Shown here: piece after piece, positions 22,351-34,399 of the stretch
How positions within the stretch are numbered: position 1 is the stretch's first letter
Layout of the letters: each line of letters opens with the position of its first letter
Assembly (NCBI GenBank): GCA_016649785.1
Contig: JAENXB010000002.1
Coordinates: forward strand, 1 to 34,627
Direction of reading: 5' to 3'
Origin: Flavobacteriaceae bacterium
Lineage (GTDB): Bacteria > Bacteroidota > Bacteroidia > Flavobacteriales > Flavobacteriaceae
Length of the DNA: 34,627 nt
Made by a program: the position numbers and the translations under genes
Notes under the pieces: model-generated
Told to the model about the DNA's origin: nothing
The model's input: only the letters and a program-made list of their open reading frames with translations
Database searches by the model: none

Positions 22351-23082
22351 ATGGCTCAAGCACCCTTTCAGTATTCCGGTAAATTATATTTAATTCCTAC
22401 TACTTTAGGAGAATCAAATCCAATGGAAGTTCTTCCCATTTCAATTACCAAAATAATTGAAAAAGTAGATTATTATATTGTTGAAAATGAAAAGACCGCC
22501 AGAAAATCGATAAAACAAGTCGTTCCTGAAAAAAGTCAGCCACTATTAAAATTGAGCCTTCTCAATAAATTTACCGAAAAAAGTATGCTGTCTTCCTTTT
22601 TAGACCCTTGCAAAGAAGGTATTGATGTTGGACTTTTAAGTGAAGCTGGATGTCCGGGAATAGCCGATCCCGGAGCTGAAATAGTGAAGATCGCACACCA
22701 AATGGGGATTCGGGTTATCCCAATGGTAGGACCTTCTTCCATTTTACTTGCTATGATGGGAAGCGGGATGAACGGGCAGAGTTTTACATTTCACGGATAC
22801 CTTCCCATAGACAAGAAAGACAGGAAACACGAGCTTAAAAGCCTGGAGCGAATTTCTTCAGAAAAAAATCAGGCACAAATATTTATTGAAACACCTTACC
22901 GGAATAACAATTTGCTGGAAGACATGAAACAAATCCTGAATCCCGCAACGCAACTTTGCATTGCCTGTGATTTAACTTTGTCTTCAGAAATTATTGTAAC
23001 TAAATCCATTTCCGATTGGGGGAAAACAAAAATAGACCTTCATAAAAGGCCTACTATTTTTGTGATTCAGAAAGAGCTTTAA
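22351..23082 (+). CDS. SAM-dependent methyltransferase, RsmI/tetrapyrrole methylase family
   Basis: GKLYLIPTTLGE...DVGLLSEAGCPGIADPGAEIVKIAHQMGIRVIPMVGPSSILLAMMGSGMNGQSFTFHGYLP. Confidence 0.9.
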   Translation: MAQAPFQYSGKLYLIPTTLGESNPMEVLPISITKIIEKVDYYIVENEKTARKSIKQVVPEKSQPLLKLSLLNKFTEKSMLSSFLDPCKEGIDVGLLSEAGCPGIADPGAEIVKIAHQMGIRVIPMVGPSSILLAMMGSGMNGQSFTFHGYLPIDKKDRKHELKSLERISSEKNQAQIFIETPYRNNNLLEDMKQILNPATQLCIACDLTLSSEIIVTKSISDWGKTKIDLHKRPTIFVIQKEL

Positions 23083-23737
23083 GCCCTGTTAACAATGGCT
23101 TTTGCTTTTTTGTCAGGCTGTATGAAGGAGGTGTCGTAACCGGCGAATTTCTTTATGTAAAACCCAATAGTAGTTCCAAAAGCATCGCTAAAGGAATTGG
23201 CGCCCCAACTTCTCAAATATTTTTTGACACTTCCGGGTCCGGCCAAATGCGCTGCTGCCAAAATCCCCGATTCAGTGATCTCAATCCCATTGATCTTTTT
23301 TCCTGCAAATCGGGCTATATCCCTTTTTAAGATCCATTTGTTCCTGGAGGCATTGGCATAAAATGCCGCTTCCTGAAGTTCAGGGGAATTTAAGAATAAT
23401 TTAGCATCATAGATCCCTATTAAATTCAAAGTGCCCTTTCCAAATTGATATTTCCCCATATACCCGTACTCATTTACGGTTTTGTAATTTCCCCGGGATT
23501 CTTTAAAAGCAACCGCTTCCTTAAAACCAATATAAGATTTCCCTAATTTGGGAAGGATCTTTATTGCAGGTTCTTCAAACAAAGCGTTTTCCTCTAAGGA
23601 AGTAACTGTATATTCAAAAGTGTCGTTGGTGGTGGTAGCGTACATATCTAAATTTGCAACTTTTTTGTTGAAAAACTCAAAAATATAAAACCTGCTACGA
23701 TTGGCAGAACTGAAAATTTTACAATTTTCCTTCTCAT
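23079..23737 (-). CDS. Exported lysozyme/transglycosylase-like protein; reading frame requires a -1 shift near 23660-23666
   Basis: Body AFKESRGNYKTVNEYGYMGKYQFGKGTLNLIGI...AAHLAGPGSVKKYL in one frame. A typical signal peptide MRRKIVKFSVLPIVAGFIFLSFSTKK starts at 23737 in the -1-related frame. The ORF-track start at 23807 lies upstream of the predicted TSS. Confidence 0.7.
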
Positions 23738-23793
23738 AATTTATTGATTCTGAAAGGTTAATAGTCAACTTGACCCCTCTCAATTTCGCCGTG

Positions 23794-23801
23794 CAAAGAT
23801 A
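23794..23801 (-). promoter_or_regulatory. -7 box TATCTTTG upstream of the lysozyme-like gene
   Basis: Exact TANNTTTG (followed by C) on the minus strand; implies a TSS near 23790. Confidence 0.5.
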
Positions 23802-23865
23802 CAACAATTTTTAATAATTTGATATACAGCCTGTTAAAGAATTCCTAAAGGATTTCGGCCCAATT

Positions 23866-31030: not shown

Positions 31031-31097
31031 CATCCCTAAATCAACCTCTGGCGAAAACCGTGAATGTTGCTTTGGCATATATTTTAAACTATAGCTT

Positions 31098-31448
31098 ATG
31101 GAATCGTTAATTAAATTCGTACAAGACGAATTCGTTACCAAAAAAGATTTTCCTGAATTTTCAGCAGGTGATACTATTACTGTTTATTATGAAATTAAGG
31201 AAGGGGCTAAAACCCGTACTCAGTTTTATAGAGGTGTAGTAATTCAGGTTAAAGGAACAGGAATTTCAAAAACCTTTACCATCAGAAAAATGAGTGGTAC
31301 TGTAGGTGTTGAGCGTATTTTTCCAATAAATATGCCCGCACTTCAAAAAGTTGAAATCAATAAACGCGGTAAAGTTAGAAGAGCCCGTATTTATTACTTT
31401 AGAGGTCTTACAGGTAAAAAAGCCCGTATTAAAGAGCAAAGAAGATAA
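31098..31448 (+). CDS. rplS: 50S ribosomal protein L19
   Basis: FPEFSAGDTITVYYEIKEGAKTRTQFYRGVVIQVKGTGISKTFTIRKMSGTVGVERIFPINMPALQKVEINKRGKVRRARIYYFRGLTGKKARIKE. Confidence 0.98.
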   Translation: MESLIKFVQDEFVTKKDFPEFSAGDTITVYYEIKEGAKTRTQFYRGVVIQVKGTGISKTFTIRKMSGTVGVERIFPINMPALQKVEINKRGKVRRARIYYFRGLTGKKARIKEQRR

Positions 31449-31502: not shown

Positions 31503-31825
31503 CTTTTTATACAAAAACTATTTTTGAAAAGAAAAAGGAATTCAATCTTACTTTTTTTAAACAGAAAATTTATCTATAAAACAACCTTTTCTTTAAAAAA
31601 ACATAAACCTCATTTTAAAATTCAAACGTTAAAACATTTTACAAATTAAAATTTTCATCGTAAATTGTGGATGTATTTAAAATTCAAATAGAATGACACC
31701 AGAATTTCTAATATTTTAAGTACTTTAAAGTAAGTTCTTTGCACAGGTTTTTATCTTCTATAATGTATGTTTTATAAAATGTAGACAGCTATAAAAGGTA
31801 AAAACGTTTTTGATATAATTTGGGC

Positions 31826-31975
31826 GCGTTCGTGAACAATTTATATCAAGTGAAATATCGCTCGCGGTAAGTTATGAAAATTGACTTATTTCCGATCTTT
31901 AAAGATCCAGCGGCAAAGCGTTATTTCGTTAGAAGCCATTTCAAAATACCTTGTATTTTGAAATGGCTTTTTTTA
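31826..31975 (+). ncRNA. Candidate small structured RNA (boundaries approximate)
   Basis: Orphan strong terminator at the 3' end (31933-31969 plus U run), preceded by several self-complementary segments; no convincing ORF ending before the terminator. Confidence 0.35.
31933..31975 (+). terminator. Rho-independent terminator not attributable to any annotated gene
   Basis: AAGCCATTTCAAAATA-CCTTG-TATTTTGAAATGGCTT followed by TTTTT; 16-bp perfect arms, 485 nt after rplS and 200 nt before icd. Confidence 0.85.

Positions 31976-32174: not shown

Positions 32175-34399
<2,225 letters not shown>

Follow-up and report, generated by a model that had tools for sequence, protein, structure and literature searches.

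A muramidase-like gene in a Gillisia assembly very probably carries a one-base indel, not a recoding site, at its signal-peptide junction

The DNA analysed here (the window, a stretch of 34,627 nucleotides) carries a muramidase-like gene whose signal peptide and enzyme body lie in two different reading frames. The break between them is very probably a one-base indel at the signal-peptide/body junction and not recoding, because in every relative the gene is unbroken at this place. A secreted lysozyme-like gene of Gillisia that is read in one frame in relatives is one base short at the junction in this assembly, and as deposited its translation from the true ATG ends after 29 amino acids. No exported enzyme is predicted, apart from any made by spontaneous slippage at a low level on A_AAA_AAG. 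A second start inside the body would yield an enzyme that lacks a signal for export. We infer, rather than demonstrate, that the indel is probably an error of assembly or consensus, which we regard as the most likely origin, ahead of a real recent deletion. The parts of the gene that bear on the junction are the following.

23794..23801, minus strand: Bacteroidetes-type -7 promoter box TATCTTTG (from the sequence and its conserved position in orthologues)
23648..23737, minus strand: signal-peptide ORF of 29 amino acids, truncated by the frame change (from the sequence and the same signal peptide in the body frame in relatives)
23660..23666, minus strand: AAAAAAG, the site of the one-base deficit, resembling a slippery heptamer and without conservation as such (from the alignment and a survey of junctions)
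23079..23660, minus strand: lysozyme-like/transglycosylase-like body, with no signal peptide of its own in its frame (from homology and a pN/pS like that of relatives)

Read on the minus strand from the ATG at 23737, the sequence ATG AGA AGG AAA ... TTT TCA ACA AAA AAG TTG CAA ATT TAG gives MRRKIVKFSVLPIVAGFIFLSFSTKKLQI*, with the TAG stop at 23648. The first-pass annotation had described this as a 29-residue signal-peptide ORF that stops at once, and reading 23737-23648 (minus strand) confirms it, as it does the placing of the body frame at exactly -1 to the signal peptide and the phasing of the A6G at 23666-23660 as A_AAA_AAG in the signal-peptide frame. The long ORF at 23079-23807 (minus strand) has a TTG start and 242 amino acids; its frame, -1 to that of the signal peptide, reads ...NKKVANLDMYATTTNDTFEYTV... 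The likely transcription start is downstream of its TTG at 23807, which is therefore not a real start codon; it was rejected as such on the conserved promoter box, which sits downstream of it. Judging from the sequence, the N-terminal residues of the long ORF are the leader read as protein. A TAnnTTYG box is found at the matching position in all 15 aligned Gillisia orthologues and in nearly all Flavobacteriaceae loci, so that the annotation was also right in locating a -7 box at 23801-23794 and in calling the start in the ORF track false.

The window comes from an assembly of Gillisia, a marine Bacteroidetes genus, that consists of 429 contigs and is 81% complete. The named orthologues at 73-76% identity in a genome contig search are all Gillisia, and a genus-level search agrees. 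The congeners compared have about 66-74% protein identity to the window, which makes this a between-species comparison. Over its full length the window is collinear with G003:C1:193505-232736, G003 being a complete congener.

Thirteen other Gillisia orthologues have an intact N-terminus, and all of them keep signal peptide and body in one frame. The alignment of the window to the Gillisia orthologues is unambiguous save that the window lacks one base at AAC-AAAAAAG; the junction codons of congeners are, for example, ACA AAG GAA GCT GCA AAT TTA (K-E-A-A-N-L). The wider survey covered 102 distinct loci of Gillisia and other Flavobacteriaceae, including the window and the genome G013, and in 97 of these a signal peptide that begins with ATG shares the frame of the body. 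Three further loci (L057, L072 and L093) have the signal peptide in frame with no nearby ATG, which brings the count to 100 of 102 by inspection; TTG codons stand at the expected start position in L057 and L093, and L072 is similar by inspection. The two exceptions are the window and G013 (locus L023; a single-contig genome, 97% complete), whose orthologue shifts frame elsewhere, at two positions, probably through indel errors of that assembly. No Gillisia congener has A6G at the junction, and among the 13 whose N-terminus is intact, as across the other loci of the family, none has the two-frame arrangement together with the heptamer.

Near the Lys-rich junction, A6G does occur in 14 of the roughly 102 family loci, the window among them and the other 13 having it within a single open frame, and Salegentibacter sediminis (L048) has an in-frame A7 there (TCA ACA AAA AAA GCT GCA); so the run reads as ordinary Lys-Lys coding, and its coincidence with the junction as incidental. 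An in-phase A_AAA_AAG is found 176 times in the 405,961 codons of the ORFs of G003, in 166 of 1,154 ORFs (14%). The case is a caution: about one ORF in seven in this A-rich genus has the motif in phase, so that finding it at a broken gene counts for little unless relatives are compared. The headline of the first-pass annotation, that a -1 shift at a dnaX-type heptamer joins the body to the signal peptide, does not hold in view of relatives that are single-frame and without a heptamer at the junction. The orthologue alignment that it had itself proposed gave a single frame in close relatives and an in-frame A7 in a near genus, and this tells against the proposal. An indel or sequencing error was also among its explanations, and is supported by the single frame of the relatives and the one-base gap.

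Alternatively, the sampled strain could really have lost one base, and recently, in which case the gene would be a pseudogene of recent origin or a variant of that strain. This is possible though rather unlikely. It fits every alignment, and A-rich runs commonly gain or lose single bases by mutation. It has to be set against a gene that is otherwise intact in promoter, leader, signal peptide and body, that is constrained, and that was found in every Gillisia genome searched. The mean pN/pS of the body is 0.134 against congeners, compared with 0.147 among the other congeners; there was therefore no long period of relaxed selection, and there is no sign of decay. A second frameshift on the same contig, about 10 kb away, also points to the assembly.

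33359..33410, plus strand: second frameshift, splitting a monomeric NADP-type isocitrate dehydrogenase gene (a single protein of 740 amino acids in G003; PF03971 halves in two frames)

The split gene spans 32175-34399 and consists of the ORFs 32175-33410 and 33389-34399 (plus strand). Near 33375-33390 it has two extra bases relative to G003, with no homopolymer at the site, and this is the sole further clear frameshift along the stretch collinear with G003. A PF03971 search of the assembly, which is 81% complete, found no other monomeric isocitrate dehydrogenase copy, and the only other Iso_dh match in it is leuB, beside leuC and leuD. With two frameshifts in a stretch of 34 kb, and the only isocitrate dehydrogenase found being hit by one of them, a consensus error or a strain mixture is favoured over biology. 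A high indel rate across the whole assembly is without support. In a comparison of 364 kb of the assembly, the window included, with 1.36 Mb of G003 (80 orthologue pairs), no frameshift was detected in the 46 pairs outside the window, about 12% of the assembly, by a method that misses short terminal pieces and that left the muramidase-like gene itself unflagged. The GeneTack survey expects frameshifts that are validated by homology and occur as singletons to reflect sequencing errors and not true indels (PMC3711429).

Programmed -1 ribosomal frameshifting at A_AAA_AAG, specific to one species and setting the amount of enzyme that is exported, is very unlikely. In its favour, the heptamer is in the correct phase and is the dnaX shift site, which in E. 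coli is much more shift-prone than similar heptamers, one tRNA-Lys reading both AAA and AAG (PMC5009743); the two tRNA-Lys genes found in G003 both have the anticodon UUU (typing covered part of the 45 tRNAs). Against it stand the occurrence of the two-frame arrangement in no relative, the unshifted product, which would be a bare 29-residue signal peptide, and the second frameshift on the same contig, which has no such motif. Stimulators were also lacking, as the first-pass annotation had observed: shuffled sequence folds as well as the 70 nucleotides downstream of the heptamer (z = -0.40) and as the 99 nucleotides from just before it (z = 0.20), and no SD-like element is seen in the sequence upstream. 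E. coli dnaX frameshifting uses both kinds of stimulator, an upstream SD-like element and a downstream stem (PMC3711429).

Sequence that surrounds the site and reaches upstream of it, at 23654-23700 (minus strand), does fold better than shuffles (z = -2.33). A small CAAC/GTTG hairpin there has the A6 in its loop; it is in the wrong place for a 3' stimulator and is possibly, at most, an indel hot spot of the indel-prone quasi-palindrome kind.

Transcriptional slippage that mends the frame in some mRNAs is hardly credible: the A run is exactly at the frame change, yet an A6 is short when slippage-prone runs often have at least 8 nucleotides (PMC3711429), and the arrangement is without conservation. 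Both programmed frameshifting and transcriptional slippage were thus rejected, on conservation, on the missing stimulators and on the short run. There is likewise only a slight chance that the base is truly missing in one Gillisia species and that an unstimulated -1 shift at A_AAA_AAG gives low-level exported enzyme; a tRNA-Lys set with UUU only would perhaps favour such a shift. That it would amount to a lineage-specific compensatory frameshift linking signal peptide to enzyme is similarly improbable. If true, frameshift-controlled export would be a rare case.

Our preferred reading, an indel in an otherwise ordinary gene, leaves the structured 5' leader of a cell-wall enzyme gene as the matter of more lasting interest.

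23738..23793, minus strand: conserved 5' leader that links promoter to start codon and contains a bulged hairpin; the window has it intact (from covariation and a covariance model)

From promoter to start the leader measures 45-80 nucleotides across orthologues (23793-23738 in the window). Covariation was assessed in a set of ten different leaders from Gillisia, Salegentibacter and Christiangramia, which form a two-part hairpin with a bulge on the 3' side; 91.7% of the cells are paired, and changes on both sides occur in 7 of the 12 pairs. The observed covariation score was reached by 0 of 500 shuffles, and slid versions scored far lower. The covariance model matches the window leader with E=1.1e-11 and gives one match per genome, at the muramidase-like gene only, in all 15 Gillisia genomes with the upstream region; G012, whose contig begins inside the gene, lies outside this count. 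In 20 genomes outside Gillisia the model had no match at E <= 0.1, and an Rfam search with the leader matched no family. Other Flavobacteriaceae genera have leaders of similar appearance at the same position, with a similar beginning and often able to form a hairpin. The leader may be an mRNA-stabilising or regulatory element, a putative function.

Two other features of the window were recorded. An L19-Flavobacteria ribosomal protein leader (RF03130, 43.5 bits) lies at 31042-31069 (plus strand), upstream of the ORF 31098-31448. At 31669-31948 (minus strand) a G003 ORF of 106 amino acids (195942-196262) matches in short pieces and in three frames only, and this is either a decayed gene or non-coding similarity.

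The identity of the body comes from homology. No curated Pfam family reaches its cut-off against it, the match to PF06737 (Transglycosylase-like) having 16 bits against a cut-off of 27, and a PDB sequence search with it gave no match. It does match phage tail-lysozyme and endolysin families, among them phrog_27932 (tail lysozyme; E=1e-7). Domains of Tenacibaculum phages that bear the annotation baseplate hub subunit and tail lysozyme share 48-49% identity with it. The label muramidase-like is a fair one on this homology, the activity being a predicted one.

Three known systems can be set beside this gene. With the programmed -1 frameshifting of dnaX it has in common the heptamer A_AAA_AAG and its phase; unlike dnaX, it is without an upstream SD-like element, a downstream stem, conservation in relatives and a useful short product. 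The body is homologous to flavobacterial secreted lysozyme-like proteins related to the 'peptidoglycan-binding protein LysM', and to the tail-lysozyme domains of Tenacibaculum phages; unlike the latter, the cellular Gillisia gene stands alone and has a signal peptide. A parallel to the frame change is the class of singletons that GeneTack calls 'hypothetical pseudogene / error' (PMC3711429), where a single genome is likewise affected, the homologues are in one frame and the two halves are homologous to one protein, and from this class the window gene shows no difference of substance.
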